32,652 nt of DNA from an uncultured SAR116 cluster alpha proteobacterium (lineage in GTDB: Bacteria; Pseudomonadota; Alphaproteobacteria; Puniceispirillales; Puniceispirillaceae). The stretch is from NCBI GenBank assembly GCA_902559985.1, contig CACEJY010000014.1:1-32652 (forward strand), in the 5' to 3' direction. Below the pieces are notes generated by a model. The model was not told the DNA's origin and searched no databases. It worked only from the letters and a program-made list of their open reading frames with translations. Positions 5,503-22,285 of this stretch are shown piece after piece. Both the position numbers and the translations under genes were made by a program. Numbering within the stretch: the stretch's first letter is position 1; every line of letters starts with the position of its first letter.

Positions 5503-5599
5503 CGCTGTGTAATAACCAAAACAAATTGTAGCTCTTGACTCACGAAGATAGTGAACTGATGCAGTGGATATCAGAAATAATGGGAGTAAAAAGGTAAAC

Positions 5600-6874
5600 A
5601 TGACTAAAAAACATGATCAAAGCCTCTCACTTTCACGACGCTCTTTATTGGGGGGAGCGACCGCTTTGGGTGCTGCATCAGTTTTAAATTCGGCAAGTGC
5701 AGGCGAGGTGAATCCTGATAATTTACCACCGAATGTGCCGGAATGGACGCCCTATCTAGGCGAGGGCGTAGATGCAAATCCATATGGCCTGCCGTCTGAG
5801 TTCGAAAGTCATGTCGTGCGGCGTAATGTCGAATGGCTGACAGCGAGTGCGGAATCGTCCGTAAATTTTACACCGCTTCACGAACTCGATGGTATTGTAA
5901 CACCGAACGGGCTGTGCTTTGAACGACATCACGGTGGGGTACCTGAGGTTAATCCTACTGATTTCAGGCTTATGATAAATGGTCTAGTAGATCGACAGTT
6001 AATATTTACGCTTGATGATTTACGCCGCTTTCCGCAAACAAACCGCTTTTATTTTTTGGAATGTGCTGCCAATGGCGGTATGGAATGGCGTGGTGCGCAA
6101 TTGAACGGGTGTCAGTACACTTTTGGCATGGTGCACAATGTTCAATATACCGGCGTGCGGTTGTCCGACATTTGCCGGGAAGTCGGAGTCAAGCCAAGTG
6201 CAAAATGGGTGTTAGCAGAGGGGGGGGACTCTGCTGGTATGACCCGCTCCATCCCGATTGAGAAGATTCTCGATGATTGTATGGTCGCTTATGCGATGAA
6301 TGGTGAGGCGCTTCGTCCCGAGCAGGGGTATCCAGCTCGCTTAGTCGTGCCGGGATGGGAAGGCAATATGTGGGTGAAGTGGCTTCGTCGTCTTGAATTT
6401 GGCGACATGCCTTATATGGCTCGTGAAGAGACATCAAAATATACTGACCTAATGAAGGATGGAAATGCGCGCATGTTCACTTGGGTGATGGACGCAAAAT
6501 CTGTTGTCACGTCGCCTTGTCCAGAAAAAGCGATAAATAATAGAGGAGTGCAGCTTTTAAAGGGAATTGCATGGTCTGGTCGAGGTAAAATCAAACGAGT
6601 GGATGTATCATTGGATGCTGGACGTAACTGGCAGACTGCTGAATTACATGGGCCGGTGCTGGAGAAGTCACTTGCCCGGTTTACCATGCCTTTTGAGTGG
6701 AATGGTGAAGAGATGTTGATTCAGTCGCGCGCGATTGATGAAACGGGTTATATCCAGCCAACTATTCAAGCGCTACAAGCTGAAAGAGGTGTAAACTCTA
6801 TTTATCACAATAATGCAATCGCGACTTGGATGGTCAATAAAGACGGAAGCGTGGATAATGTCAGGCTTGGCTAA
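5600..6874 (+). CDS. soxC: Sulfane dehydrogenase molybdoprotein subunit SoxC
   Basis: A 424-residue member of the sulfite oxidase family. It has a Tat signal (SRRSLLGGATALGAAS), an oxidoreductase molybdopterin domain (~residues 95-295) with the molybdenum-ligating Cys155 in YFLECAANGGMEW, the LVVPGWEGNMWVKW segment, and a C-terminal dimerisation domain with VDVSLDAGRNW. It has no heme domain, which is typical of SoxC as opposed to animal sulfite oxidase. In the periplasm SoxCD oxidises the sulfane sulfur bound to SoxY and passes electrons to cytochrome c. ATG 5600 is preferred over the start 36 nt earlier because AAGG precedes it and the Tat signal then sits at the N-terminus. It overlaps soxD by 17 nt. 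Confidence 0.95.
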   Translation: MTKKHDQSLSLSRRSLLGGATALGAASVLNSASAGEVNPDNLPPNVPEWTPYLGEGVDANPYGLPSEFESHVVRRNVEWLTASAESSVNFTPLHELDGIVTPNGLCFERHHGGVPEVNPTDFRLMINGLVDRQLIFTLDDLRRFPQTNRFYFLECAANGGMEWRGAQLNGCQYTFGMVHNVQYTGVRLSDICREVGVKPSAKWVLAEGGDSAGMTRSIPIEKILDDCMVAYAMNGEALRPEQGYPARLVVPGWEGNMWVKWLRRLEFGDMPYMAREETSKYTDLMKDGNARMFTWVMDAKSVVTSPCPEKAINNRGVQLLKGIAWSGRGKIKRVDVSLDAGRNWQTAELHGPVLEKSLARFTMPFEWNGEEMLIQSRAIDETGYIQPTIQALQAERGVNSIYHNNAIATWMVNKDGSVDNVRLG

Positions 6875-7517
6875 GCAAAAGAAGGCAGGCTTATTAAGCA
6901 TTGGTTTTGTCCTTACGCAATTTTCCTTTTCTCCAGTGTTTGCAGAACAGCGGCCATTTAACTTAGGCTCAATCGCCACTGCAGAACAGGTGGCAGGATG
7001 GGATATTGACGTTCGTCCAGACGGACTGGGAGCTCCAATCGGAGCTGGAAATGCTATTGACGGGGAAGCGGTGTATACCGACCGCTGTGCCTCTTGTCAC
7101 GGTGATTTTGGAGAGGCTGTTGATAATTGGCCAGCATTGGTTGGCGGTGAGGGTACATTAGCAAGCCATGATCCGGTCAAAACAACTGGGAGTTATTGGC
7201 CGTACGCTTCAACCATGTACGATTATATTTATCGAGCAATGCCATTTGGTGAGGCTCAGTCGCTCACCTACAATGAGACCTACCAGATTGTCGCTTACTT
7301 GCTGAACATGAACGATATTATCGACGACGACTATGAACTTAATAATAAGAATATTGGAAAAATTGAAATGCCGAACCATGCAGGTTTTTTGATTCCTGAC
7401 CCTCGACCCGATGCGCAGTCCATTTCTGGGGACCCGTGCATGAATGATTGTAATGTCCCGACGCAAATCATTGGCAAGGCCAGGGATATTGATGTGACTC
7501 CAGAAAATGAGAGTTAA
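6858..7517 (+). CDS. soxD: Cytochrome c subunit of sulfane dehydrogenase, SoxD (monoheme form)
   Basis: The 219-residue protein starts at ATG 6858, overlapping the soxC end, and has a Sec signal peptide ending VFAEQ (~residue 30). One heme c site, CASCH, lies at residues 77-81, with a likely Met ligand in RAMPFGEAQ. The conserved SoxD segment with PFNLGSIATAEQVAGWDIDV follows the signal. The Paracoccus protein has two heme domains; here the region after ~residue 165 is short and has only a C-X3-C pair (Cys194, Cys198) without a heme motif. It takes electrons from SoxC. The translational overlap supports an obligate SoxC partner. Confidence 0.88.
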   Translation: MSGLAKQKKAGLLSIGFVLTQFSFSPVFAEQRPFNLGSIATAEQVAGWDIDVRPDGLGAPIGAGNAIDGEAVYTDRCASCHGDFGEAVDNWPALVGGEGTLASHDPVKTTGSYWPYASTMYDYIYRAMPFGEAQSLTYNETYQIVAYLLNMNDIIDDDYELNNKNIGKIEMPNHAGFLIPDPRPDAQSISGDPCMNDCNVPTQIIGKARDIDVTPENES

Positions 7518-7697
7518 TTTTTCTCGGAATTTCGGTTACTTTATTGATGGTTTTGGCAATTAAAAAGGGCCACGTAAGTATCACGAGGTTACAAAATATA
7601 TAATGAAGTATGAGATCAAGAAGGGGTGTTAATAATATAGACGCCGCATCAAAAGTCTCAGTGCCAATGGATATTGATAATCTTCGCAAGGGTTTTT

Positions 7698-9392
7698 ATG
7701 CGTTCACGTCGAGAATTCCTTCAATTAGCTGCAGTAAGTGCGTCTTATTTTGCTGGTACCTCAAATTTTGCGAGGGCTGCTGCGCGACAGGTCCTAACCC
7801 AAGATGACTTGTTAAAATTTGAGTCTATAGGCCAAGTAACACTGTTACACATAACCGATATGCACGGACAACTGAATCCTGTTTATTTCAGACCACCATC
7901 TGAAAACTACGGTGTTGGTGCCTTTGAAGGTGTCCCCCCACATCTTATTGGTGCCGAATTCTTGGAACATTTTAATATTCCAGCCGGCTCCGCTTATGCC
8001 TATGCGCATACAATGGTTGATTACGTTTCTCTGGCGAGAGCTTACGGCAAACTTGGTGGTTTAGATAGAACTTCCACCATAATAAAAGCAATTAGGGCGG
8101 AACGCGGTGAGGACCGGGTTCTTCTCTTAGATGGCGGGGATACATGGCAGGGTTCCTACACTTCATTGAAGACACAGGGCGCTGATATGGTCACGGCTAT
8201 GAAAGCACTCCGACCAGACGCGATGGTTGGACATTGGGAATTTACTTTTGGGAAAGATCGTGTTGAAGAACTGATTGATGAAATGGGCTACCCTTTTCTT
8301 GGAAGTAATTGTTTCGACACTGAATGGGAGGAACGTGTTTTTGATAGCACCGCTTACTTTGAAAAAGGGGGGGTCAAGGTGGCTGTAATTGGCCAGCATT
8401 TTCCCTACACACCAATTGCAAATCCAAGCCATTTGATTGAGGGTTGGTCCTTTGGCATAAGGCCCGATGAGATTCAAAAAAATGTTGATGAGGCACGTGG
8501 TAAAGGTGCTGAAGTAGTCGTTCTGCTCTCCCATAATGGATTTGATGTTGACCAGAAATTGGCGACTGAAATAAATGGGATTGACGTTGTACTAACGGGC
8601 CACACCCATGATGCCGTGCCTGAGGCCATACGCATCAATAACACACTTATTTTATCATCTGGTTCGCACGGCAAATATCTTGGCAGAATTGATTTAAAGG
8701 TGAGTGGTGGAAAAGTTGTTGACGCCAATTCCACTCTTATTCCTATATTTTCTGATGTAATTGCTCCGGATATCGAAATCACCAAGTTGATAGGTGAACT
8801 GCGGGCACCCTATGAAAAAGAATGTCGCCGCATCATTGGTCAAGCTGGTGCACTATTATACCGTCGTGGTAATTTTAACGGCAGTTGGGACGACGTTATC
8901 TGTGATGCTATTCGGGACCAGAAAGATGTTGAAATAGCTCTGAGTCCGGGTTTTAGGTGGGGCACCACACTTCTTCCGGCACAACCAATAACTATCGATG
9001 ATATCTATGCGCAAACTGCCATGAATTATCCGGCTGTTTACCGCACATATATGACCGGTGAACAGCTTAAGACCATGCTTGAGGATGTTTGTGATAACCT
9101 TTTCAATCCTAACCCGTATTACCAACAGGGAGGGGACATGGTGAGAGTGGGTGGCGTGTCTTACGAGTGTGCTCCAAAGGAACTTATAGGGAAACGAATT
9201 CGGAACATGGTGATTAGCCAAACTGGAGAACCCATAGAACCCGGTAAGAAATATACTGTTGGCGGTTGGGCATCGGTAAATCCCAAAACGACGGGACCCC
9301 CAATATACGATGTGCTTGAAGATTACATTACTCGTAAAAAAATTGTTCGGCCCTCTGGTACCGATTACGTTAAAGTTACTGGCGTATCGTAG
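7698..9392 (+). CDS. soxB: Thiosulfohydrolase SoxB
   Basis: A 564-residue periplasmic metallophosphatase-fold enzyme. It has a Tat-type signal (RSRREFLQLAAVSAS) and dinuclear manganese ligand motifs in order: ITDMHGQL (~52-59), LLDGGDTWQGS (~150), VGHWEFTFG (~180), LSHNGFDVD (~285) and TGHTHD (~308). A 5'-nucleotidase C-terminal domain follows (ITIDDIYAQTAMNYPAVYR). SoxB cleaves sulfate from the SoxY-bound sulfur chain. ATG 7698 has AAGGG 5 nt upstream and puts the Arg pair at the start; the in-frame codon at 7674 is less suitable. A 180-nt gap separates it from soxD, and a strong terminator follows. Confidence 0.95.
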   Translation: MRSRREFLQLAAVSASYFAGTSNFARAAARQVLTQDDLLKFESIGQVTLLHITDMHGQLNPVYFRPPSENYGVGAFEGVPPHLIGAEFLEHFNIPAGSAYAYAHTMVDYVSLARAYGKLGGLDRTSTIIKAIRAERGEDRVLLLDGGDTWQGSYTSLKTQGADMVTAMKALRPDAMVGHWEFTFGKDRVEELIDEMGYPFLGSNCFDTEWEERVFDSTAYFEKGGVKVAVIGQHFPYTPIANPSHLIEGWSFGIRPDEIQKNVDEARGKGAEVVVLLSHNGFDVDQKLATEINGIDVVLTGHTHDAVPEAIRINNTLILSSGSHGKYLGRIDLKVSGGKVVDANSTLIPIFSDVIAPDIEITKLIGELRAPYEKECRRIIGQAGALLYRRGNFNGSWDDVICDAIRDQKDVEIALSPGFRWGTTLLPAQPITIDDIYAQTAMNYPAVYRTYMTGEQLKTMLEDVCDNLFNPNPYYQQGGDMVRVGGVSYECAPKELIGKRIRNMVISQTGEPIEPGKKYTVGGWASVNPKTTGPPIYDVLEDYITRKKIVRPSGTDYVKVTGVS

Positions 9393-9464: not shown

Positions 9465-10730
9465 TTAAGAGAACATATCGGTTGTAATTCCTTTATACCA
9501 ACCCTCTGACTCCTCATAAGTAGCTTTACGCACATCTGCGCTCTCACCACCTTGCGAAATGAATTTATCCACAACATCAATTTTTTCAGCGCCAGCTTTA
9601 TAATTCGCGCCAACCTTAACGCCGTCATTTGTCGCGATAAGTGACCAGCAAGTATTTGCAAAGCGTGGCTCGAACACCCTGCTGCCAGTTAGCTCACCAC
9701 GAATAGCATTTGCTGCTACCTTTGCCTGGCTATTAGCGGAAAAACCTGATTTTGGCATTGAAGAAGCAACAGAAGCATCCCCCAAAACATAAATATTAGG
9801 ATCAGCTTTTGATGCCATTGTGGCAGGAATTATAGGTGCCCAATCACCATCTGTTACCCCCGCACTCTGAGCAATCGTCCCCGCTCTTTGTCCCGGTACC
9901 ACACAAGCTGCATCCGCTTTAAACGTGTCTAGATCGGTCTCAAACTCCATTGTTTGAGCATTAATAGACTTTAATCCCCCGTGTGTATCTGGTGCAATCC
10001 ATTCAATCATTCCTGGATAATGCTTTTCCCATCCAGCGGTAAAGAGGCCCATTTTTGAGAATTTTGGCTTAGGATCAAGGATAATGATTTTTGCGGTTGG
10101 ATTGGATTTCTTAAAGAGATGCGCAATCATTGATACCCGCTCATATGGCCCAGGTGGACACCGATATGGATTGGGTGGGGGTACCATCACAAAAGTACCG
10201 CCTTTTTTCATATTTATGACCTGGTTGCGCAGCAACTGGACTTGTGTTCCCGAGGTCCAAGCATGAGGCATACGGCTTTGCACTTCAGGAGAATAGTTAG
10301 GAACACTATCATACTTTAAAGAAATTCCCGGAGATAACACTAGCTTATCGTAAGCAATTGAACCGCCAGAGCCTAATTTTAATACTTTAGCTCCGTTGTC
10401 AACTGACGTTGCCCATTCATGTACAACATTGACACCGTTGTTCACTGCAAGACCGTAATAATTATGGCCTATTGAAGCGTAGTTTCTGAACCCACCAAGA
10501 TAAAGATTTGAATAGAAGCAAGTGTAATAACGTTTTGATGCTTCCACTAATGTTACGTCAACGGCACCTTTACTATCCTTTGCGATATACCGAGCCGCTG
10601 TTGCGCCGCCCGCACCACCGCCGACCACAACAACACGTGGCCGTGCACCAAAAGCTAACGAGGGTGCAGCAAGAATTGCTGTACCGAAAGCGAGGCCGGT
10701 GGCAAATTGTCTACGTGAAAAATTTGACAT
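9465..10730 (-). CDS. fccB: Sulfide dehydrogenase flavoprotein subunit (flavocytochrome c, SoxF/FccB)
   Basis: The 421-residue protein has a Tat signal (MSNFSRRQFATGLAFG), an FAD-binding VVVVGGGAGGATAARY motif (~residues 33-48) and the FCSD redox Cys71 in YYTCFYSNLYLGG. It also has an NPYRCPPGPYERVSM segment, an FAD-contact GDASVASSMPKSGFSAN segment and a C-terminal FCSD-specific domain (FANTCWSLIA). In the periplasm it oxidises sulfide and passes electrons to its cytochrome subunit, encoded just upstream. ATG 10730 is chosen for its GGGAGGAAAC. The gap to the cytochrome gene is 131 nt and AT-rich. It is convergent with soxB, with a shared terminator. Confidence 0.93.
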   Translation of the reverse strand: MSNFSRRQFATGLAFGTAILAAPSLAFGARPRVVVVGGGAGGATAARYIAKDSKGAVDVTLVEASKRYYTCFYSNLYLGGFRNYASIGHNYYGLAVNNGVNVVHEWATSVDNGAKVLKLGSGGSIAYDKLVLSPGISLKYDSVPNYSPEVQSRMPHAWTSGTQVQLLRNQVINMKKGGTFVMVPPPNPYRCPPGPYERVSMIAHLFKKSNPTAKIIILDPKPKFSKMGLFTAGWEKHYPGMIEWIAPDTHGGLKSINAQTMEFETDLDTFKADAACVVPGQRAGTIAQSAGVTDGDWAPIIPATMASKADPNIYVLGDASVASSMPKSGFSANSQAKVAANAIRGELTGSRVFEPRFANTCWSLIATNDGVKVGANYKAGAEKIDVVDKFISQGGESADVRKATYEESEGWYKGITTDMFS

Positions 10731-10861
10731 GTTTCCTCCCACTTAAAACAAGCTGTTTAAATATATACATGAGCTTTATGTTAGGAAATATTTTTCACTT
10801 TAGTAAAGAAAACATAAGACATATATAAATTTATGCATATAAATTCAGGCAGTGCTTAAGC

Positions 10862-11191
10862 CTATTTAGAAGATAACGAGGCAAAATAAACCGCGAGCGA
10901 CGCAATCTGTTCATCGTCAAGCCTGCTTGCCACCAGTTGCATTACCTTATTCTCAAGTTCTTTACTTCGGTAAGATTGTAAAATGTAGACAAAAGAATCA
11001 GCGTCCATTCCCGAAATATTTGGAATACCATCATTAGCAGCGCCGCTGCGATGACAAGTTACGCACTCACCAGCTAAATACTCTCCGTAAGCGATATCAG
11101 CATTTTTAATTAAGTTTTCCGCCTGAACGCATTGGATAGATGCTACTGAGATAGATATTGCCGCCATAAAAGTTAATATAAACCGGGACAT
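10862..11191 (-). CDS. fccA: Monoheme cytochrome c, probable FCSD cytochrome subunit
   Basis: A 109-residue class I cytochrome c with a Sec signal peptide (cleavage near VQAEN), one heme site CVTCH at residues ~43-47, and a Met ligand in the ENKVMQLVASRLDDEQ region. Its place immediately before the FCSD flavoprotein suggests it is the electron acceptor of that enzyme. Sox clusters may also call it SoxE-like, though classical SoxE has two hemes. CAGGAG precedes the ATG. Only 39 nt separate it from the stop of the S-formylglutathione hydrolase gene, with no GC-rich hairpin between them, so co-transcription with adhC-fghA is likely. Confidence 0.82.
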   Translation of the reverse strand: MSRFILTFMAAISISVASIQCVQAENLIKNADIAYGEYLAGECVTCHRSGAANDGIPNISGMDADSFVYILQSYRSKELENKVMQLVASRLDDEQIASLAVYFASLSSK

Positions 11192-11230: not shown

Positions 11231-12058
11231 TTAAAGGCGCGAGTGGTGCCAATGCAAATGATCCTTCATAAATGTTGAAATAAAGAAATATGAGTGATCA
11301 TAATTCTCGTGCATTCGTAATTTGATTTTTATTCCCGCATCCTTGCAAGCGTCAACCAATAGCCAAGGTCTCAAACCGTCTTGGAGAAAACTGTCACCTT
11401 TCCCTTGGTCAACAAAGAACTCTGGGAACAGGTGGCCATCCTCGATCAATGAAACTGCATCGTATTTTCGCCATTCGTCATTTTTTTGTCCCAAATACTT
11501 CTCAAATGCGGGCGTTGACCAACTTGCATTCGAAGGTTGAGAAATTGGCGCAAAAGCCGAGCAGCTCTTAAACCGTTTTGGGTTTTTTAGTGCCATAGTC
11601 AACGCGCCATGGCCTCCCATTGAGTGTCCAAATATTCCTTGCCTGCTCATATCAACTTTGAACTTATTATCAATTAGCTCTGTTAATTCATGTAATATAT
11701 AGGAATACATATTGTAGTTCACTGAAAATGGCCGCTGAGTAGCATCTAAATAAAATCCAGCGCCTAAACCAAACTGCCAATTATCTCTCTCATCAGGGAC
11801 ATTGTCTCCTCGAGGGCTAGTGTCTGGACAAACGATAGTAATGCCGAGTTCTGCTGCGATTTCCCGGTATTCACCCTTTTCCATAACATTTGAATGGTTA
11901 CACGTAAGTCCGGATAAATACCACAAAACCGGTGGCGGGGTTTCTCTATTGGGTGGAGTGAAAACTGCGAATGTCATTTCACATTCGTTGGTTTTGGCAA
12001 AGTGTTTGTATACACCTTGCACACCACCATGAGACATGTTTTCTGAAATTACCTCCAT
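11231..12058 (-). CDS. fghA: S-formylglutathione hydrolase
   Basis: The 275-residue product is full length for the esterase D family. The nucleophile is Ser146 in FGHSMGGHGAL; family motifs include LSGLTCNHSN, PDTSPRGDNVPDE and NYNMYSYI, with a C-terminal His in YDHSYFFISTF. It hydrolyses S-formylglutathione to formate and glutathione, the second step of cytoplasmic formaldehyde oxidation. The ATG directly abuts the TAA of adhC with no gap, indicating translational coupling. A later in-frame ATG (codon 8) lies 14 nt after a GGAGG, but family alignment of MEVISENMSHGGVQ favours the first ATG. Confidence 0.95.
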   Translation of the reverse strand: MEVISENMSHGGVQGVYKHFAKTNECEMTFAVFTPPNRETPPPVLWYLSGLTCNHSNVMEKGEYREIAAELGITIVCPDTSPRGDNVPDERDNWQFGLGAGFYLDATQRPFSVNYNMYSYILHELTELIDNKFKVDMSRQGIFGHSMGGHGALTMALKNPKRFKSCSAFAPISQPSNASWSTPAFEKYLGQKNDEWRKYDAVSLIEDGHLFPEFFVDQGKGDSFLQDGLRPWLLVDACKDAGIKIKLRMHENYDHSYFFISTFMKDHLHWHHSRL

Positions 12059-13168
12059 TTAGTACACTACTACGGAGCGGATAGATTCGCCAGCATGCAT
12101 TAGATCAAAGCCTTTATTGATTTCATCGAGCTTGAGAGTATGGGTAATCATTGGATCGATATCAATCTTGCCATCCATGTACCAATCAACAATTTTGGGT
12201 ACATCAGTCCGGCCACGTGCCCCGCCAAATGCAGTGCCCCGCCAACTGCGTCCAGTTACAAGCTGGAAAGGACGTGTACTGATTTCCTGACCAGCGCCAG
12301 CAACACCAATGATAATTGATTCACCCCATCCTTTGTGAGCGCATTCAAGAGCTTGGCGCATTACATTAACATTGCCGATACATTCAAAAGAATAATCGGC
12401 GCCACCACCTGTCAATTCAACAAGATGTCCAACAAGATCATCCTTGAGTTTTGATGGATTTACAAAATGTGTCATGCCAAATTTTTCGCCCCAGGGCTTT
12501 TTGGCATCGTTCATATCAACACCAACAATCATCCGGGCCCCAATCATGCGTAGCCCCTGAATGACATTCAGGCCAATACCGCCAAGTCCAAAGACTACGC
12601 CAACGCAGCCTGGCTCAGCCTTGGCCGTATTGATCACCGCGCCAATCCCAGTTGTAACCCCGCATCCGATATAACAAATCTTATCGAAAGGTGCGGCCTT
12701 ATTAACTTTGGCAAGTGCAATTTCAGGCAGGACTGTGAAGTTGGAAAAGGTCGAGGTTCCCATATAATGCAGAACAGGCTTTCCTTTTATAGAAAACCGG
12801 CTAGTGCCATCGGGCATAACGCCCTGGCCTTGCGTGGTGCGAATAGCCTGACACAGATTTGTTTTGGGATGCAGACAATAATCACATTCGCGACATTCAG
12901 GCGTGTAAAGAGGGATTACATGATCACCCACCCCAACACTTGTAACACCAGAACCTATCTCGCGGACAATACCAGCCCCTTCATGCCCCAGAATAGCTGG
13001 AAACAGGCCTTCAGGATCAGCCCCGGAAAGGGTGAATTCATCAGTATGACAAATGCCAGTCGCCATGATTTCAACAAGCACCTCGCCATCGCGTGGACCA
13101 TCAAGATCTACTTCCATAACTTCTAATGGTTTGCCAGCCTCAACCGCAACAGCCGCTCGTGTCTTCAT
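12059..13168 (-). CDS. adhC: S-(hydroxymethyl)glutathione dehydrogenase / class III alcohol dehydrogenase
   Basis: A 369-residue zinc-dependent dehydrogenase of normal class III length. The catalytic zinc site is in GICHTDEF and GHEGAGIV. The structural zinc site has four Cys in PECRECDYCLHPKTNLC. The NAD-binding motif VFGLGGIGLNVIQG is followed by VGVDMND, and IGCGVTTGIGAV marks the family. It converts S-hydroxymethylglutathione (formaldehyde plus glutathione) to S-formylglutathione in the cytoplasm, and the next gene completes the pathway to formate. AAGGGAGG precedes the ATG. The upstream DUF2182 gene ends 68 nt away, without an obvious terminator between them. Confidence 0.96.
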   Translation of the reverse strand: MKTRAAVAVEAGKPLEVMEVDLDGPRDGEVLVEIMATGICHTDEFTLSGADPEGLFPAILGHEGAGIVREIGSGVTSVGVGDHVIPLYTPECRECDYCLHPKTNLCQAIRTTQGQGVMPDGTSRFSIKGKPVLHYMGTSTFSNFTVLPEIALAKVNKAAPFDKICYIGCGVTTGIGAVINTAKAEPGCVGVVFGLGGIGLNVIQGLRMIGARMIVGVDMNDAKKPWGEKFGMTHFVNPSKLKDDLVGHLVELTGGGADYSFECIGNVNVMRQALECAHKGWGESIIIGVAGAGQEISTRPFQLVTGRSWRGTAFGGARGRTDVPKIVDWYMDGKIDIDPMITHTLKLDEINKGFDLMHAGESIRSVVVY

Positions 13169-14067: not shown

Positions 14068-14166
14068 TTTTTGTCTTTGATTCCTTTACGCAACGAAGGC
14101 TTTCGCATTGACGTTGAATTCATGCACAAACAGTGCACATTGACAATCTTTTCTGGCTGTTTAATG

Positions 14167-14195
14167 CTTGTAATGTACCGTTTGGTCTGTACACT
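14167..14195 (+). promoter_or_regulatory. Promoter and TetR-type operator of the TPR gene (copy 1 of a shared 29-nt block)
   Basis: A -35-like TTGTAA (14168-14173) and a -10-like TACACT (14190-14195) are separated by 16 nt. The operator TGTACCGTTTGGTCTGTA (14174-14191) fills that spacer, with ACC-N4-GGT dyad symmetry and outer TGTAC/GTACA arms. The whole block differs at only 4 of 29 positions from the one at 20015-20043. It lies 49 nt before the TPR start and about 100 nt upstream of the divergent DUF2182 start. Confidence 0.7.
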
Positions 14196-14243
14196 GAATG
14201 GTGTATTTATAAAAACAGTAAAATATTAATAGGGGAAGTCCAG

Positions 14244-15998
14244 ATGTCTCTCGCACCCATAGATTATGATTTTGGAAACGCGTCAAACTATTCATTCGCG
14301 ACAACGATTACTTGCGCAAATGAAGATGCACGGAAAATGTTCGTTGAAGGCTTCGGACATATGCTGAATTTTAACCACGAACAAGCAATTGCGTGCTACA
14401 TGAAGGTGGCCGAACACGACTCGAACTGCGCAATGGCATATTGGGGTATAGCATACTGCGTCTCCTCGAACTACAACTGGACGCCTGGCTTGGGCTCTGG
14501 CTTTGATCCAATTCAACAGGCTATCTCTCTTAAAGCGAATTGTTCAGAATTAGAACAAGATCTCATCGATGCATTAGCCGAGCGCCACTCTAAAGAAGCA
14601 CGTGATGCAGCTGACCCTTCAGTGCTTAATATGGGTAATACACCAGAACTCAATGCTGCGTTCGCAGCAGCTATGGCTCCTCTTTATGAAAAATATAAAG
14701 GCAATTTGGACGTTGCTGCAATCTATGTAGAGGCTCTCATGAACCTCAAAGCATGGCAATTGTGGGACAAGAACACCGAGACTGGTGAAATCACACCGGC
14801 GGATGACAACACACTGACTTGCGTTAAAGTTATGGAAGATGCCTTTGAGAATATCGACGGCGCAAAAGAACATATTGCATTGTGCCATTTATATTGTCAC
14901 TGCTTGGAGCTGTCTCCATTCCCTGAACGAGCTTTACCTGCAGCTGATGTGCTACGCACTGCCATGCCGAGCATGGGTCACCTTGTGCACATGCCCTCTC
15001 ATATTGATGCTTGGGTTGGACAATGGAAAGAGGCCGTGGAATGCAACATCGCTGCTGTAGAAGCTGATGATAAATACGTTGAACTCACTGGCAACGAATC
15101 ACAATTTTACAAGTTTTATAGAATGCATAACCACCACTTCGTGGTCTGGTGTGCAATGTTTGAAGGCCAATATGAAACCGCCATGAAATACGCTCGGAAG
15201 GCGGCGGCTGCAAATCCCGCAGGTGACGAGAATTCAGGCGTACAGTTCATGCTTGCTGGGATCATACCAATGGGCGCAATCTTCCTTGAATCCTATGTCG
15301 CCCTGCCATTCCATGTAATGATCCGATTCGGAATGTGGGATGATATAATTGCTGAACCGACCTTTTCAGACAAAGAAGTCTTCGCATCCACTATCGTAAC
15401 ACAACACTACGCTCGTGGTGTCGCCTATGCCTCCAAAGGCATGGTCGCGGAAGCGGAAGCAGAACAGGCTCTCTTTTATGAAGCACTCAAAAACCCAGCA
15501 CTTGCTGGTCGCGTGCTACATAATAATTTGATGTACCAAGACCCAAGCGATGGCCCGTGTATTCACTTGGTTAATGCTGCTGTTTTGGACGGTGAAATCG
15601 AATACCGCAAGCAGTTCCTAGCCAAGGCTCGCGGTGAAGCATCTGACTTTACCGCTGCTTTTGACCATTTACGTCGCGGTGTCAATCTCTCACTAAACCT
15701 TGCGTACAACGAGCCATGGGGGCAAATGCAACCTGTGCGCCATATTCTTGGTGCATTACTTTTCGAACAAGGCGAGATAGAGGAAGCAGAAGCCGTATAC
15801 CGTGCTGACATCAAACTTTGGAAAGACAACATGTGGGGCTTATTGGGTCTCAAACTCTGTCTCGAAGCACGAGGCGATGCGCCTGAGGAACTCGCTGAGG
15901 TCACTGCTTTATTCAATGAGCGCAGCTCGCGTGCTGACATTGTGCCAGCAAAAACGTGTTTCTGTGCTCAAGACAGCATCGCTAAGAGTTGCTGTTAA
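14244..15998 (+). CDS. Large TPR-repeat protein, Cys/His-rich (TTC38-like family)
   Basis: The 584-residue product has no signal peptide, so it is probably cytoplasmic. Tetratricopeptide helices are visible throughout, for example NFNHEQAIACYMKVAEHD, GNLDVAAIYVEALMNL, YETAMKYARKAAAANP and GEIEEAEAVYRADIKLW. It resembles bacterial TPR proteins related to TTC38, including the HMPSHIDAWVGQW motif near residue 250. It contains 17 Cys, with clusters CHLYCHC (~215) and a tail with CFC and a terminal CC (Cys572, 574, 583, 584), plus HNHH near 297; metal or thiol binding is possible. GGGGAAG precedes ATG 14244. It is monocistronic, ends at a terminator and shares its promoter block with the MaoC-ETF operon. 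Function unknown. Confidence 0.85.
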   Translation: MSLAPIDYDFGNASNYSFATTITCANEDARKMFVEGFGHMLNFNHEQAIACYMKVAEHDSNCAMAYWGIAYCVSSNYNWTPGLGSGFDPIQQAISLKANCSELEQDLIDALAERHSKEARDAADPSVLNMGNTPELNAAFAAAMAPLYEKYKGNLDVAAIYVEALMNLKAWQLWDKNTETGEITPADDNTLTCVKVMEDAFENIDGAKEHIALCHLYCHCLELSPFPERALPAADVLRTAMPSMGHLVHMPSHIDAWVGQWKEAVECNIAAVEADDKYVELTGNESQFYKFYRMHNHHFVVWCAMFEGQYETAMKYARKAAAANPAGDENSGVQFMLAGIIPMGAIFLESYVALPFHVMIRFGMWDDIIAEPTFSDKEVFASTIVTQHYARGVAYASKGMVAEAEAEQALFYEALKNPALAGRVLHNNLMYQDPSDGPCIHLVNAAVLDGEIEYRKQFLAKARGEASDFTAAFDHLRRGVNLSLNLAYNEPWGQMQPVRHILGALLFEQGEIEEAEAVYRADIKLWKDNMWGLLGLKLCLEARGDAPEELAEVTALFNERSSRADIVPAKTCFCAQDSIAKSCC

Positions 15999-16330
15999 TC
16001 AGCTGTTACTTCTTATCTGATAATAAAAGGGGGCGGTTCTTTCCGCCCCTTTTGCGATAAAACATTGATGATTTCCATCCAATGGATTGAAACTGTTTAT
16101 CAAATAAATTGGAACGTTTCGATCGCCGACCATCAGCAAGTAACAGCGATCAATCTTCGCGGCGCAACAACAGGATTGAAAAAGCATAATCACGTGGCCT
16201 CTAGAAAAGCCAAGAATGAATTCATTCAGATTGTCCACACTGGCTTTTAAGGGTATAAATTCCTTGTAAAAAAATAAAAGATATATGCTGATAAAATTGC
16301 TTTGGTCCGTCGACTCTCAGCTCTTTTCTA
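15999..16330. other. Gene-free region between the TPR gene and etfA
   Basis: Apart from the terminator at 16025-16053 I see no supported gene here. The two overlapping open frames of 60-80 codons on opposite strands lack ribosome binding sites and family resemblance. Confidence 0.5.
16025..16053 (+). terminator. Rho-independent terminator of the TPR gene
   Basis: GGGGCGG / CCGCCCC pairs with a 6-nt loop TTCTTT, is extended by A-T pairs, and ends in TTTT. It lies 27 nt after the TPR stop codon. The left A-run would also let it stop minus-strand transcripts from etfA. Confidence 0.85.
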
Positions 16331-17326
16331 CTAGGCTTTCAGCTTCCTAATCTCTTCGGCCAGTGCGGGCATAATTTCCTGAGAGTTTCCTACTATACCA
16401 AAACGAGATGATTTGAATATTTCCGCATTTGGATCAGAATTGACCGAAACAATGGTCTTTGAATTTCCACAGCCCGCCATATGGTGGCTAGCGCCGGATA
16501 TTCCGACCGCAATGTAAAGTTCAGGTGCCACTGTGCGCCCGCTCAACCCAATCTGGTAAGAGCGTGGACACCAGTCCAAATCACAGGCGGCACGACTTGC
16601 ACCAACAGCTCCATCCACCAGTTCTGCAATTTCATTGAGTGTTTTAAATCCTTCTGGACCGCCTAAACCAAGCCCACCACCTATCACAATTTTTGCACTC
16701 TCCATCTTTACTCCGTCGGCTTTTTCCGTTTCACGGTTGACAACACGAGTGCGTATCGAATTTTCATCAAGAATTGAATCCACATGTTTAATCTCACCGC
16801 TGCGCTCCATCATAGGTGGGAGGGCCTGTTGGCTTTTTGAACGAACAGTAGCTAACGTAGGTGTCTTGGTGAAAGTGACCACTTCGCGCGCAAGGCCACC
16901 AAAGCAGCTTCTGGTCATGTGTGGTTGTCCATTCATAACCTCAATGGATTCACAACCGGTAGCCACATCTACATCAAGCCGGAAGGCGAGGCGGGGGGCA
17001 AGGTCAGTGCCAGACTCCGAATGTCCAATTAGAACAATAGCGGGCGCCACCTCAGCAATTATTTTGGATAGATCTGGCAACCAGGCTTCAGCATGAAAGT
17101 TGGCAAAAATTGAGTTATCATTAATTAAAACTTGATCTGCACCGTGTGCAATCAGTGTTTCACCAGTAGTTTCCATGCCAGTACCGAACGCGACCGCGGT
17201 GACTATTCCCCCCATACTGTCAGTTAGATACCTTGCCAATGCCAACATCTCCAAACCTAGATCGATTGGTTGGCTTTCCGAGACCTCGACAACTACGAGA
17301 ACACCATTATTATTGTCAGTCATCAT
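16331..17326 (-). CDS. etfA: Electron transfer flavoprotein alpha subunit
   Basis: A 331-residue ETF alpha protein. The N-terminal adenine-nucleotide alpha-hydrolase-like domain (residues ~8-190) is followed by the FAD-binding C-terminal domain with KIVIGGGLGLGGPEGF, GAVGASRAACDLDW, YQIGLSGRTVAPELY and GISGASHHMAGC. The family usually has Q-H in the last motif; here it reads HH. ETF collects electrons from flavin dehydrogenases and passes them to ETF-ubiquinone oxidoreductase. Two ATG codons are adjacent; the second (17323) has the better spacing to AGGA. It follows etfB by 6 nt. No acyl-CoA dehydrogenase is in the operon, which makes the upstream molybdoenzyme the obvious redox partner. Confidence 0.93.
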   Translation of the reverse strand: MMTDNNNGVLVVVEVSESQPIDLGLEMLALARYLTDSMGGIVTAVAFGTGMETTGETLIAHGADQVLINDNSIFANFHAEAWLPDLSKIIAEVAPAIVLIGHSESGTDLAPRLAFRLDVDVATGCESIEVMNGQPHMTRSCFGGLAREVVTFTKTPTLATVRSKSQQALPPMMERSGEIKHVDSILDENSIRTRVVNRETEKADGVKMESAKIVIGGGLGLGGPEGFKTLNEIAELVDGAVGASRAACDLDWCPRSYQIGLSGRTVAPELYIAVGISGASHHMAGCGNSKTIVSVNSDPNAEIFKSSRFGIVGNSQEIMPALAEEIRKLKA

Positions 17327-17332
17327 TTGTTC

Positions 17333-18145
17333 CTATATCAATTTTGCTTCACGCATGTGCTGAGCCAATGCGGCAGCTATATCTGCTGGTGTATCTCCAC
17401 CAATGAATTCACACTCTATGTCGTTCACTGGGATATAGAGGCGCTCTAGTTTGTAACGCATAGCGGTAGAACCCACCTGTGTCTCATCAAGGCCAATATC
17501 ATCAGGCATCCATTCATTAACCGGTTTCTTCGCCGCGCGCATGGTCTCCCGCATTGATGCATGGCGGACTTTGCCCAACTCGTTGGAGATAGTTACCAAC
17601 GCTGGTAAATCTGCTTCAACTGTCTCAATACCATCCTGAAGCACTCGTTGAACTGTGACGACACCGTCATTAATCCGCACGTCACGCGCGAAAGTGATGG
17701 CTGGAATATCTAAAATTTCGGCTATTCCTAGCCCTACAACGCCAGCGTCCCCGTCGGCAGCTTGACGCCCAGTCAAAATCAAGTCCACATCACCAATGGT
17801 GCGGATTGCCTCAGCCAAGTTACGGGCAGTGACGTACCCACCACTACCATCAAAGACTGAATCACTGAGCAAAACGGCATTATCAGCACCTAGAGCAAGC
17901 GCCGCTTTGATGGGCGCACGGGAGGCTTTTGACGCGATAGTCACAATTGTTATCTCTACGTCTGCGTCCTCTCCTAAGCTATCACGTATCCTCAAAGCAG
18001 CTTCAACTGCTTGTTCATCAAATGGACTTAGAACAGGTTGCAAACCAGATACTGGAATCAAGACTTTTGCTTGTTCGTCAATGCGAAACTGAGCAGATGG
18101 GATCTCAGGATTTTGGATCTGTTTGACACACACCACGATCTTCAT
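17333..18145 (-). CDS. etfB: Electron transfer flavoprotein beta subunit
   Basis: The 270-residue protein starts MKIVVCVKQIQNPE, the usual ETF beta N-terminus. It carries the signature VLTGRQAADGDAGVVGLGIAEILDIPAITFARDV split around residues 120-155, and AAKKPVNEWMP near 205. I place the start at 18145, not at the frame's first Met seven codons upstream, because AAAGGGTGA sits just ahead of it and the N-terminus then matches the family. It is 7 nt from the stop of the SoxC-like gene and 6 nt from etfA. With etfA it forms the soluble cytoplasmic FAD heterodimer. Confidence 0.94.
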   Translation of the reverse strand: MKIVVCVKQIQNPEIPSAQFRIDEQAKVLIPVSGLQPVLSPFDEQAVEAALRIRDSLGEDADVEITIVTIASKASRAPIKAALALGADNAVLLSDSVFDGSGGYVTARNLAEAIRTIGDVDLILTGRQAADGDAGVVGLGIAEILDIPAITFARDVRINDGVVTVQRVLQDGIETVEADLPALVTISNELGKVRHASMRETMRAAKKPVNEWMPDDIGLDETQVGSTAMRYKLERLYIPVNDIECEFIGGDTPADIAAALAQHMREAKLI

Positions 18146-18152
18146 AGAAAAA

Positions 18153-19415
18153 TCACCCTTTCTCAACAGTAATTATTTCAGGCACGATGCCGTCAAAGTG
18201 CTTGCGCTGAAAATTCCAGTCCATAGTCGGTTGCACTCGACCTTTTTCGTCGGTTCCACGCGCCATCACTTTGTACTGTCCTGGTTCAGCAACATCCCAA
18301 ACATAGTGGAACCGTCGCCATAGCCAGCGGTCGTTAGATTCCTCGATGGTTGCATCGTTCCAGCTTTCACCCCCGTCAGTACTGATCTCAACCCGAACCA
18401 CGGCACCTTCACCACTCCAGGTTCGACCAGTGATGGCGTGTGTACCGCACTTGATTGGACCATCGTCGTCTCGAGGCGAGGTAATTAATGCTTTGACACC
18501 AAGCTTTTTCATCGGCTTCTTGTCGGGATCTTCTGGAGATTTGCCGCTCACAAAATAGTGGGTTTGATAATAGAAATCGGGCGTATGATCTAGCACTTCT
18601 ATTTTTTCAATCCATTTTACCCACCAATTTCCAGCCCAACCCGGCACAACTAGTCGCAGTGGTGCACCATGTACATGTGTCAAGTACTCACCGTTGTGAG
18701 CCCATGCTAGAATTGTGTCTTCATGGAGGGCTTTTTCGATCGGCATCGCCTTTGCGTAATTGATGATACCAGGATCAACCACATCAAAGTCAGTACGTCC
18801 AACTGAGAGGTATTGGGTTACTGGATCAGGTTTGCCTTCATCCCAACCATGAAGGGCGACAGACACCGCACCTTCTTGTATGCCAGCAAGCTCAAGCACA
18901 GTCTTAAAGGGCACTCCAGTCCATTCACCACCACTGACCAGTCCCGTCGTTGGAATAGACTGAAGGATATTATTAATGTCTAGAGCCTCTTCGCCGTCTC
19001 CGGATTGGCGCCAACCGCCTTCTTCAGCTTGGACAACCCGCAAAGAGGGCTTCGGTACGTTTTTACCTTCTTCGATATAGTCCCAAAATTCACCATCATT
19101 TCCCGCACATTCGGTCACTGCACGTACTGTGCGCCCCGGCAACTTTCGAATTTCCTCAAGAGTGTATTCAATTGGATTATCAACCATTCCACCGATTGAA
19201 AATGAAAAATCATCTGGATGAACCGGATCAGGCATATTGAGTTGAGCGATCACATAATATGCGTCTGTTGGTGTCAGCACTCCCTCTAGATCAAGGACTG
19301 GAGAACGCGCAAATATAGTTCGCCCTTCAGAGTCTTTACTTGGCATCACACGGGCCCGTTTACGATCGGGCCAACCCATAACCCATTCACCTTCGAGTTC
19401 CATCTCTTCTGACAT
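18153..19415 (-). CDS. SoxC-like / sulfite oxidase family molybdoenzyme without export signal
   Basis: A 420-residue sulfite oxidase family protein. The molybdopterin domain has the molybdenum ligand Cys103 in RAVTECAGNDGEFW. The HGAPLRLVVPGWAGNWWVKW segment is near residue 260, and the Mo-co dimerisation domain has VRVEISTDGGESWNDA and a QPTMDWN end. Sequence motifs resemble SoxC more than heme-containing sulfite oxidase, and there is no heme domain. The N-terminus (MSEEMELEGEWVMGWPDRKR) is acidic and lacks Tat or Sec features, so the enzyme should be cytoplasmic. GGAGTGATAAT precedes the ATG. It lies between the MaoC gene and etfBA, with 7 nt to etfB. The substrate could be sulfite or another sulfur oxyanion or sulfoxide; this is not decidable here. 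Confidence 0.88.
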   Translation of the reverse strand: MSEEMELEGEWVMGWPDRKRARVMPSKDSEGRTIFARSPVLDLEGVLTPTDAYYVIAQLNMPDPVHPDDFSFSIGGMVDNPIEYTLEEIRKLPGRTVRAVTECAGNDGEFWDYIEEGKNVPKPSLRVVQAEEGGWRQSGDGEEALDINNILQSIPTTGLVSGGEWTGVPFKTVLELAGIQEGAVSVALHGWDEGKPDPVTQYLSVGRTDFDVVDPGIINYAKAMPIEKALHEDTILAWAHNGEYLTHVHGAPLRLVVPGWAGNWWVKWIEKIEVLDHTPDFYYQTHYFVSGKSPEDPDKKPMKKLGVKALITSPRDDDGPIKCGTHAITGRTWSGEGAVVRVEISTDGGESWNDATIEESNDRWLWRRFHYVWDVAEPGQYKVMARGTDEKGRVQPTMDWNFQRKHFDGIVPEIITVEKG

Positions 19416-19473
19416 ATTATCACTCCTGCTTAGTGGTATTTCTGTTTAAATAATTTTGAAAAGTCTTCTTCGT

Positions 19474-19929
19474 TTAAAGGCCCTTGAGCGCCATAGTGTA
19501 AGTGGTAGCGGTGCCATCAACACAAAGGTCGCCAGCACTGTCGGTAATGGTGGTTTTTAGCTTGCAAATTGGTTTGTCATCTCTTACCGATTCAATTTCG
19601 ACTCTGGCAGTCAACTCTTCTCCCACTCCCACTGCTTTTAAAAATTTTAGTTCAGTTGATAAAAACACCGTGCCAGGCCCGGGTAAGTCTTCCGCAACAC
19701 AGGCATTCAGGAGTCCTGTCGTCACACCACCTTGCACTATAAGCTTTCCAAACGGAGTTTTTTTTGCAAGCTCTTCATCATAATGAACTGGGTTTTTATC
19801 GCCAGTCATCTCAGTAAACAAATGTATATCGCTAATCTTAGTAGTACGAGTGCGTTCACTGAATTGTCCGACTTTTGGTTGGCCATTTAAAACTCCTGCC
19901 CATCCATCTTTTTTTTCTGTATCTGACAT
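19474..19929 (-). CDS. MaoC-family hydratase, (R)-specific enoyl-CoA hydratase-like
   Basis: A 151-residue single hot-dog domain. The hydratase motif is FTEMTGDKNPVHYDEE, with catalytic Asp and His of the D-x4-H type in GDKNPVHYD, followed by FGKLIVQGGVTTGLL and PGPGTVFLSTELKFLKAV. The family hydrates enoyl-CoA thioesters or acts as a broad acyl-thioester dehydratase. ATG 19929 is the family-like start; the frame is open 36 codons further, but that part is the promoter region. The leader has a 10-nt A-run and no strong ribosome binding site. It is the first gene of the operon with the SoxC-like enzyme (58 nt gap) and etfBA. Confidence 0.87.
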   Translation of the reverse strand: MSDTEKKDGWAGVLNGQPKVGQFSERTRTTKISDIHLFTEMTGDKNPVHYDEELAKKTPFGKLIVQGGVTTGLLNACVAEDLPGPGTVFLSTELKFLKAVGVGEELTARVEIESVRDDKPICKLKTTITDSAGDLCVDGTATTYTMALKGL

Positions 19930-20486: not shown

Positions 20487-21068
20487 TTGAAACAAACAGA
20501 ACAAGCAAAGAAGATAACTAAGGTGGCAGCATCTTTGTTCGCACAAAAAGGCTACAATGGAGTTGGCGTTGCGGAAATTGGAGCAGCTTCAGGTTTCGGT
20601 CGTGGTACGCTCTACCATCACATAGAAAGCAAGGAAGACCTTCTCCACGAAATTGCTTCACAGTATATTTCAGACCTTGTTCAGTCTGGCCATAGGATAG
20701 CTATAGAATATCCAGACCCTGTTCAGCGCTTGAAAGCGCTCAGTAGACACCTGATGGCTGTAATCAGCAGTAGTTTAGCAGAAATAGTTGTCTGTTTTCG
20801 TGAGGTACAGTCTTTGACGGGCTCACGGCACCATGACGTTATGTGTATGCATGCAGAATACCAACAAATCTGGTCTAAAACTATAGAGGAAGGTGTGCAA
20901 CAAAATGTGTTCAGAGAAGTCGATAAAATTGCTGTGAAGGGCCTTTTGGGGATGTATTTTTACTCCTGTCTGTGGCTAAAACCTGATGGTCTTCAATCTC
21001 CTGAGGATATTGGAGATGTTTTTAGTGATCTTGTTATTCGTTCTCTTTCGAGAAGCCCGGGCGTATAA
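20487..21068 (+). CDS. TetR/AcrR family transcriptional regulator
   Basis: The 193-residue protein has the TetR DNA-binding domain at residues ~5-52: KKITKVAASLFAQKGYNGVGVAEIGAASG in two stretches, then GFGRGTLYHHIESKEDLLHEI. The C-terminal half is the ligand-binding helical domain, which contains several His and Cys residues (SRHHDVMCMHAEY). The start is TTG at 20487 with GGATGA about 10 nt upstream; the closest ATG stops after four codons in another frame. It lies 450 nt from the operator at 20015-20043 and is the natural candidate for binding it. The ligand is unknown; TetR proteins beside MaoC and thiolase genes often sense acyl-CoAs, but that is inference here. Confidence 0.9.
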   Translation: MKQTEQAKKITKVAASLFAQKGYNGVGVAEIGAASGFGRGTLYHHIESKEDLLHEIASQYISDLVQSGHRIAIEYPDPVQRLKALSRHLMAVISSSLAEIVVCFREVQSLTGSRHHDVMCMHAEYQQIWSKTIEEGVQQNVFREVDKIAVKGLLGMYFYSCLWLKPDGLQSPEDIGDVFSDLVIRSLSRSPGV

Positions 21069-21409: not shown

Positions 21410-22285
21410 GTGCCAAAAGTTGCTATTAATAATCACGAAATATCATATAGTTTTAATGGTGTTTCTAGAGACATTAGCAGCTCAGAAATAGTTTTAATTC
21501 ATGGCGCAGGTGGGCAAGAGATTGATTGGCCGATGGCATGGCGTAGTGCCAACGACCTAACTGGATCAATGGGATTGACGCCAAGTAACCAAGGTGTAAT
21601 CAGGCTTTTTAATGCCGGATTAAACAATTACTCGATTTACGCTGTTGATTTACCCGGGCATGGAAAATCGGAAGGCAAAAGTAAATTAAGCATAGATGAA
21701 TATTCGAACGACATCATAGATTTTCTGGATGCGATGGACCTCAAAAAAGTATGTTTAGTGGGACATTCTATGGGTGCCGCAATTGCATTAAACGCTTCCC
21801 TGAGCCGCCATTGGCGTATTTGTTCGGTTGTGGCGATTGGTGGTGCGAGCAAGATGAATGTCAACCATGCTATTCTTCAGGGTCTGCAAAATACATTTGA
21901 AGCAACTGTCAACAGTATCGTTAAATATTCATGGCATAAAAAAACTGGAGCTGTCGCAGACAGTGAGCAAATGGCGGCGTATTTTAGGGAGAAAGCCAAA
22001 CAAAGAATGCTGGATGCGGGCTCAAAAACTGTGCATGGCGATTTTCTCGCGTGTAGCAATTTTGATTTAAGTGCACGCTTGGAAGAAATTGCTGTTCCTG
22101 TGCTCGTAATTGCCTCTGATTGTGATCGAATGGTGCCTTTAAAGGTGAGTCGGGAAATGGCTGAAAAGTTACCAAATGCTGAGTTTGTTTCTTTGGAAAA
22201 TTGTGGTCACTTTCAGCACATTGAGCAAACCGCGAAAGTTGCCGGAGAATTAGTGACTTTTTTATCTAAACTTCGAAATACTTGA
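21410..22285 (+). CDS. Alpha/beta hydrolase
   Basis: A 291-residue alpha/beta hydrolase fold protein without signal peptide. The oxyanion region is LIHGAGGQEIDW (~residues 29-40), the Asp-Pro-Gly strand end is YAVDLPGHGKSEG (~77-89), and the nucleophile Ser120 lies in VGHSMGAA. The acid Asp is in VIASDCDRMVP and the catalytic His in ENCGHFQHIEQ. GTG 21410 is the start, with GGGA 9 nt upstream. Family members include esterases, thioesterases and haloperoxidase-like enzymes; the substrate is not predictable. It is followed 64 nt later by a small Cys-rich protein and preceded by a weak operator-like site. Confidence 0.87.
   Translation: MPKVAINNHEISYSFNGVSRDISSSEIVLIHGAGGQEIDWPMAWRSANDLTGSMGLTPSNQGVIRLFNAGLNNYSIYAVDLPGHGKSEGKSKLSIDEYSNDIIDFLDAMDLKKVCLVGHSMGAAIALNASLSRHWRICSVVAIGGASKMNVNHAILQGLQNTFEATVNSIVKYSWHKKTGAVADSEQMAAYFREKAKQRMLDAGSKTVHGDFLACSNFDLSARLEEIAVPVLVIASDCDRMVPLKVSREMAEKLPNAEFVSLENCGHFQHIEQTAKVAGELVTFLSKLRNT

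Follow-up and report, generated by a model that had tools for sequence, protein, structure and literature searches.

Acyl-coenzyme A (acyl-CoA), dimethylglycine and trimethylamine dehydrogenases are soluble flavoproteins that pass electrons to an electron transfer flavoprotein (ETF), and the membrane-bound SoeABC belongs to the dimethyl sulfoxide (DMSO) reductase family. In excerpts of the respective sources, the sulfite dehydrogenase SorT is described as periplasmic and served by the cytochrome SorU (PMC4760952), and SoeABC, a sulfite dehydrogenase (quinone), is predicted in some members of the SAR116 cluster (PMC12262181). Here, a sulfite-oxidase-family molybdoenzyme that apparently differs from SorT in both respects, designated SoxC2, was analysed in a DNA stretch of 32,652 nt from an uncultured SAR116 alphaproteobacterium (assembly GCA_902559985.1, contig CACEJY010000014.1, positions 1 to 32,652; the whole stretch is called the window). 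Its gene directly precedes etfB and etfA, encoding the two ETF subunits (Table 1). As judged from sequence comparison, SoxC2 is probably a soluble, cytosolic molybdenum (Mo) dehydrogenase that uses this dedicated, directly downstream-encoded ETF as its electron acceptor.

SoxC2 within the sulfite oxidase family

An earlier reading of the window from its letters alone (the original prediction) had described an operon of SoxC2, etfB, etfA and a MaoC-like hydratase gene; the coordinates, the frames and the 7 nt gap between SoxC2 and etfB were all correct. All four genes are on the minus strand, and the remaining gaps are 58 nt (MaoC-SoxC2) and 6 nt (etfB-etfA). Pfam scores in SoxC2 were 138 bits for Oxidored_molyb (PF00174) and 51 bits for Mo-co_dimer (PF03404), and MaoC scored 67 bits. 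Both ETF proteins carry PF01012 (106 and 110 bits), and EtfA has the C-terminal flavin adenine dinucleotide (FAD) binding domain PF00766 (103 bits), as expected of ETF subunits.

SoxC2 shares with SoxC of SoxCD (2xts; TIGR04555) the Mo cysteine in an ECA(A/G)N motif, the molybdenum cofactor and dimer domains and the full-length fold, and both lack Arg at the position of SorA R109. SoxC keeps an Arg at the SorA R55 position, whereas SoxC2 does not; the two are only 30-32% identical, and SoxC2 differs further by two extra inserts, the ETF pairing, and the absence of a leader and of a cytochrome. SorA gave the best structural match and shares the Tyr at Y236 with SoxC2, in which SorA R55, H57 and R109 are replaced. 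Residue equivalences were established from alignments to wild-type SorA (2blf) plus 2ca3, 2ca4 and 2c9x: the names R55M and Y236F were taken from the PDB titles, H57 was read off the 2ca4 alignment and R109 was located by counting residues in the 2blf alignment. The Mo-ligand Cys103 named in the original prediction was kept in 26/26 SoxC2 members and aligned to the cysteine of the SorA and SoxC structures; Tyr287 (SorA Y236) was likewise kept in 26/26. The R55 position (I/V/L/Q/N/M) and the R109 position (G/T/A/S) held Arg in 0/26, and the H57 position was Gln in all 26. R55 (mutated in 2ca3), H57 and R109 of SorA are residues that we take to have roles in sulfite binding.

Against the curated NCBIfam models, SoxC2 scored below every matched cut-off: 197.7 bits (cut-off 420) for SoxC TIGR04555, 180.9 (600) for SorA and 143 (570) for SorT (models NF052245 and NF052247), and 36 (207) for MsrP. 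In a tree from which the truncated L038 protein was omitted, the 25 near-full-length SoxC2 sequences grouped apart from seven other sulfite-oxidase-family rows with support 99/98. The AlphaFold model of SoxC2 was of moderate confidence (pLDDT 61.6, pTM 0.65), an earlier model having been discarded at pLDDT 49.8; its Foldseek matches to SorA chains spanned the length of the protein (TM 0.63-0.66, best E 3.7e-30).

Leader sequences were assessed by the peak hydrophobicity of 15-residue stretches within the first 60 residues, a crude test that was made on the family-shared start. The window SoxC2 scored 0.93 and the 26 members 0.56-1.46 (maximum in L062), against 1.54 for the canonical SoxC of the window, the start of which carries RRSLLGG. 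An early RR pair was present in 5/26 SoxC2 (L036, L039, L057, L058 and L060). CxxCH was absent from all SoxC2, EtfA and EtfB, and from the 3 kb around SoxC2 in 25/26 loci (in five loci the sequence on one side is shorter than 3 kb, and L038 has nothing downstream); the sole CxxCH frame, in L060, resembles a zinc alcohol dehydrogenase. These values agree with the original prediction that SoxC2 has neither an export signal nor a heme domain, and homologs with Tat signals or regular cytochrome partners, which it had asked about, were looked for among the loci and not found. The curated scores, the leader, the partner and the residues of the active site all spoke against an ordinary SoxC or SorA/SorT, which was rejected, and SoxC2 is apparently a distinct, cytosolic branch of the sulfite oxidase family.

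The canonical SoxC of the window (629 bits) begins with a Tat-type sequence, and the next gene encodes a CxxCH protein at the SoxD position, neither of which applies to SoxC2; SoxB (810 bits) comes after it. With these sox genes alongside SoxC2, one genome would have two SoxC-type enzymes, one periplasmic and the other apparently cytosolic. A third sulfite-oxidase-family protein (367 aa) is encoded elsewhere in the same genome (L066; contig C25 of G000, 6362-7465); by eye it has no obvious leader and its upstream gene resembles an enoyl-CoA hydratase.

Linkage and co-divergence of SoxC2 and ETF

A pattern scan of genome_contigs yielded 18 SoxC2 loci, the nearest of which are labelled SAR116 or Puniceispirillum. 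In 14/18 of them etfBA lies near SoxC2: etfB and a whole etfA follow directly in 12, the etfA after SoxC2-etfB is cut by the contig end in L027, and etfBA is divergent from SoxC2 across a TetR gene in L039. No ETF neighbour was seen in the other 4/18, one of which (L038) is cut at the contig end. Further SoxC2-etfB-etfA copies were found in G459 (L057), G460 (L059), G462 (L058) and G461 (L098), the genomes whose first-found copy had no ETF. Thus at least one SoxC2 copy stood beside etfBA in 14/14 SoxC2 genomes compared (labelled Alpha-, Beta- or Gammaproteobacteria), co-directional in 13 and divergent across one gene in 1, and six additional loci (L026, L027, L028, L030, L032 and L033) agreed with this linkage. 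The order SoxC2-etfB-etfA on one strand was counted in 18 loci, with SoxC2-etfB gaps of 6-43 nt (the etfB start of L098 being our choice). The SoxC2-ETF pairing is conserved, beyond chance; the original prediction had made its reading depend on such neighbourhoods, and the linkage was kept at genome level, though not at every single copy.

In G954, two tandem SoxC2 genes directly precede etfB and etfA (L061, 8202-10789); their products might form a heterodimer, to judge from the gene arrangement.

The ETF beside SoxC2 was also distinguished by its subtype. A profile of SoxC2-linked EtfA scored 453.6-586.7 bits in 14/14 SoxC2 genomes, against best scores of 180.9-200.9 bits in 15/15 comparison genomes without SoxC2 (hand-chosen from earlier searches), where the subtype was found in 0/15. 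Among phylum samples of 398 genomes, SoxC2 and the EtfA subtype were each found in 1, in both cases the window genome. Of 61 relatives, 7 have SoxC2, and 6 of those 7 also have the subtype; in the seventh (G014, L008/L027), etfA is truncated where a 3.5-kb contig ends. The EtfA subtype is exclusive to SoxC2 genomes among those searched, and 13/14 SoxC2 genomes (not G460) hold a lower-scoring second EtfA. The enzyme itself is rare, being found in some marine and soil bacteria: 2/385 genomes in the class (the window genome and that of L039), and 1/145, 4/7 and 1/17 in the families of G466, G460 and G464, respectively. The phylum (398) and class (385) searches were limited to four or five scored candidates per genome, other phyla were covered by the pattern scan, which reaches close relatives only, and the sampled genomes are not independent, several being incomplete.

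SoxC2 and ETF sequences diverged in parallel. Mantel correlations over 19 loci were r 0.97 (EtfA) and r 0.98 (EtfB), and over 9 deep lineages r 0.91 (EtfA) and r 0.86 (EtfB), with a permutation p of 0.0001 in each case.

Electron route and alternative explanations

In the proposed route, Mo(VI) would oxidise a substrate that contains sulfur, water supplying the oxygen, as suggested by the fold, Cys103 and Tyr287; Mo(IV) would be reoxidised by the FAD of the ETF in two one-electron steps; and the ETF would deliver electrons through ETF-quinone oxidoreductase (ETF-QO) to ubiquinone. ETF-QO (PF05187) was found in 14/15 SoxC2 genomes tested, including that of the window, the exception being the 79% complete G014. 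In Glaciimonas immobilis (L042), an ETF-QO gene is the next after etfA, on the same strand and about 150 nt on; its product carries PF05187 and the ubiquinone-binding PF21162, and a second ETF-QO is encoded elsewhere in the genome. Because of the conserved linkage, the exclusive co-occurrence, the correlated divergence and the Glaciimonas ETF-QO, the route from the Mo enzyme through ETF to quinone, which the original prediction had put forward, is well supported at the level of genome comparison. SoeABC would likewise send electrons from a sulfur compound to quinone. The known ETF-dependent dehydrogenases are flavoproteins, whereas SoxC2, the proposed Mo donor, has no flavin domain by Pfam. 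The original prediction had also seen no flavin dehydrogenase beside the ETF genes, and no acyl-CoA or amine dehydrogenase was found among the window proteins scanned (a subset of the open reading frames).

Several points weigh against this reading. Five SoxC2 copies (L035, L036, L037, L060 and L062) have no ETF beside them, and therefore share an ETF or use another acceptor; on the SoxC2 tree, about four label changes are required to account for ETF linkage; and shared species history accounts for part of the SoxC2-ETF co-divergence. The fold model is only moderate and leaves the family-specific inserts (about 104-159 and 194-215) unresolved, and with no Arg at two SorA positions, the reaction class therefore rests on the fold and the Cys/Tyr pair. 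The sulfite-releasing SsuD was not enriched, with 2/14 SoxC2 genomes against 3/15 without (E 1e-60), and SsuD was accordingly not retained as a general co-occurring sulfite source.

In one alternative explanation, SoxC2 and the ETF belong to one pathway but a different enzyme reduces the ETF, SoxC2 using another acceptor. ETFs normally serve several dehydrogenases, L039 encodes a relative of the acyl-CoA dehydrogenases that resembles SfnB/DszC, and the SAR116 cassette includes MaoC. Yet no acyl-CoA-dehydrogenase-like enzyme was seen common to the ETF-linked lineages, although no genome-wide search aimed at such enzymes was made; in L057-L059 SoxC2-etfB-etfA stands alone among what appear by eye to be housekeeping genes; and a separate ETF-sharing dehydrogenase is made less likely by the restriction of the EtfA subtype to SoxC2 genomes, so that we regard this explanation as unlikely. 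Mere neighbourhood, by chance or as a passenger operon, would fit the five copies that are not beside an ETF, but is scarcely credible in view of the linkage in 14/14 genomes, the exclusive co-occurrence and the co-divergence.

Two further explanations retain the coupling and alter its chemistry. Electrons might run in reverse, with the ETF donating to SoxC2 as an S-oxide, N-oxide or nitrate reductase: the family includes plant nitrate reductases and bacterial sulfoxide reductases (excerpt of PMC7759655), and one solved relative of SoxC2 is a fungal nitrate reductase. In both sequence and fold, however, the nearest solved structures are those of the dehydrogenases SorA and SoxC, and the MsrP match is weak; the ETF-QO of the Glaciimonas cluster fits delivery to quinone, though reverse flow would still be compatible with it, and on balance reversal appears quite improbable. 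A bifurcating ETF, with SoxC2 taking part in bifurcation or confurcation, is suggested by the five nearest solved EtfA/EtfB (6fah CarD/CarE, 4kpu, 5ol2, 7koe and 7qh2 LctB/LctC), all of which we take to be bifurcating. Their EtfB stretch DGDTxQVG, presumably a mark of bifurcation, is absent in 19/19 SoxC2-linked EtfB, which read (G/W/L/F/D)D(A/G/E)G(V/I/M)VG; a bifurcating ETF was thought unlikely on this motif, and the explanation as a whole is very improbable. A dedicated ETF that accepts electrons from SoxC2 is thus the reading preferred here.

Substrate, neighbourhood and spread of the cassette

Table 1. Features of the window, with coordinates, strand and supporting evidence
Feature	Coordinates	Strand	Evidence
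SoxC2: sulfite-oxidase-family molybdoenzyme, 420 aa, Mo ligand Cys103	18153-19415	-	PF00174 + PF03404, Foldseek, family n=26
etfB: ETF beta subunit, 270 aa, proposed SoxC2-dedicated	17333-18145	-	PF01012, 7-nt gap, co-divergence
etfA: ETF alpha subunit, 331 aa, proposed SoxC2-dedicated	16331-17326	-	PF01012 + PF00766, subtype distribution
MaoC/PhaJ-like hydratase, 151 aa, accessory; SAR116/marine-gamma cassette only	19474-19929	-	PF01575
Divergent TetR-family protein, possible cassette regulator	20487-21068	+	PF00440 + PF17932
Alpha/beta hydrolase adjoining TetR	21410-22285	+	in 6/7 other SAR116 loci whose flank is long enough (absent in L029)
TPR-repeat protein, convergent with etfA	14133-15998	+	Pfam
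Formaldehyde detoxification pair	11231-13168	-	NCBIfam TIGR02821 + TIGR02818, above cut-off
S-formylglutathione hydrolase	11231-12058	-	member of formaldehyde detoxification pair
S-(hydroxymethyl)glutathione dehydrogenase	12059-13168	-	member of formaldehyde detoxification pair
Canonical sox genes: SoxC, CxxCH protein at SoxD position, SoxB	5564-9392	+	

Free sulfite is a doubtful substrate for SoxC2, because both SorA active-site Arg positions are without Arg in 26/26 members; an organosulfur or otherwise shielded S(IV) substrate would be slightly favoured. The original prediction had suggested a sulfur-containing acyl compound, since MaoC would add a CoA-thioester step. A sulfur substrate other than free sulfite is reasonable in view of the missing Arg residues. 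The CoA-thioester part found no support: tblastn detected MaoC at 12/26 SoxC2 loci, which all belong to a single, closely related SAR116/marine-gamma cassette, and at 0/14 others. MaoC was therefore rejected as a core partner, and an acyl-CoA substrate is not supported.

Neighbouring genes gave scattered leads. The vicinity of L039 encodes SfnB-like (277 bits) and SsuD-like (285 bits) proteins, both below cut-off, and two members of the NtaA/DmoA family above cut-off (organosulfur-type flavin monooxygenases). A flavin reductase gene lies upstream in L042, a TauE/SafE exporter (PF01925) is encoded near the ETF-less L035, with a similar sequence near L038 by eye, and a class III aminotransferase gene stands beside L098. 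In SAR116-type loci, the formaldehyde detoxification pair accompanies the cassette in either of two placements: it lies downstream in the window, but upstream in L028, L030, L031 and L033; L025 has the S-formylglutathione hydrolase alone, in the downstream arrangement, and the pair was not found at L026, L029, L032, L034 or L041. Its placement is a possible hint that the SoxC2 pathway releases formaldehyde, the link being uncertain.

Around the cassette, TetR also adjoins in 9/11 other MaoC-bearing loci (not L029; L027 is too short). The TPR gene stands beside the cassette in seven other SAR116 loci at 84-89% DNA identity (protein identity 92-95%, no further domain by Pfam), is cut by the contig end in the gamma locus L041 and was not found in L032 or L034. 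Of 11 SAR116/marine-gamma loci checked (the window and ten sister loci), 7 have a major facilitator superfamily (MFS) transporter gene after etfA, fragmented in L028; the window (junction 16179-16187), L026, L030 and L031 lack it. The source genome, 72.7% complete, also holds a second ETF and an ETF-QO. At 9465-11191 of the window (minus strand), an FAD protein with a weak match to sulfide:quinone reductase (60.9 bits, below cut-off) is encoded beside a small CxxCH protein; by sequence, the two are possibly a flavocytochrome c-type sulfide dehydrogenase.

The MaoC-SoxC2-etfB-etfA block of the window is 79-85% identical in DNA to loci labelled Oceanospirillaceae or Gammaproteobacteria (L032, L034 and L041), and the TetR stretch is 85-90% identical to the same loci. 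Among SAR116 loci the block is 82-89% identical, and the comparison suggests that the cassette was transferred between classes, provided that the labels of the metagenome-assembled genomes are right. Carriage by viruses was rejected, as none of 65 pattern-matching stretches in viral_contigs was a relative, and plasmid records matching SoxC2 (118) or EtfA (260) were all below 60% identity. In the one annotated plasmid neighbourhood examined, Rhizobium L100, a 'sulfite oxidase' gene is present but no ETF; L099 carries no annotation.

No description of the SoxC2-ETF pairing was found among the papers listed by searches of the open-access literature, which omits most subscription papers; within that scope, this conserved partnership between a sulfite-oxidase-family enzyme of the cytosol and a private ETF is so far undescribed. 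If the reading is true, use of an ETF would, to our knowledge, be shown for a molybdoenzyme for the first time. In excerpts of PMC3578206, PMC8305402 and PMC4378227, both a sulfite enzyme and ETF come up, though not together. We propose, tentatively and with somewhat more doubt than confidence, a new respiratory entry in which a cytosolic enzyme of the sulfite oxidase fold would oxidise organosulfur rather than free sulfite and feed ubiquinone through a private ETF and ETF-QO, on a cassette common to different classes of marine bacteria. The reading would join the sulfite oxidase family to the ETF/ETF-QO route, two subjects usually kept apart. The external electron acceptor is stated to be unknown for many sulfite-oxidising enzymes (excerpt of PMC4760952); for SoxC2, an acceptor is proposed by the genome itself. 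Sulfur metabolism in SAR116 is under study, and the excerpts of PMC8547437 and PMC12262181 name soxCDBYZ, soeABC, ssuD and msmA, not SoxC2-ETF. If true, the reading would add a cytosolic sulfur-oxidation step to this abundant marine group.

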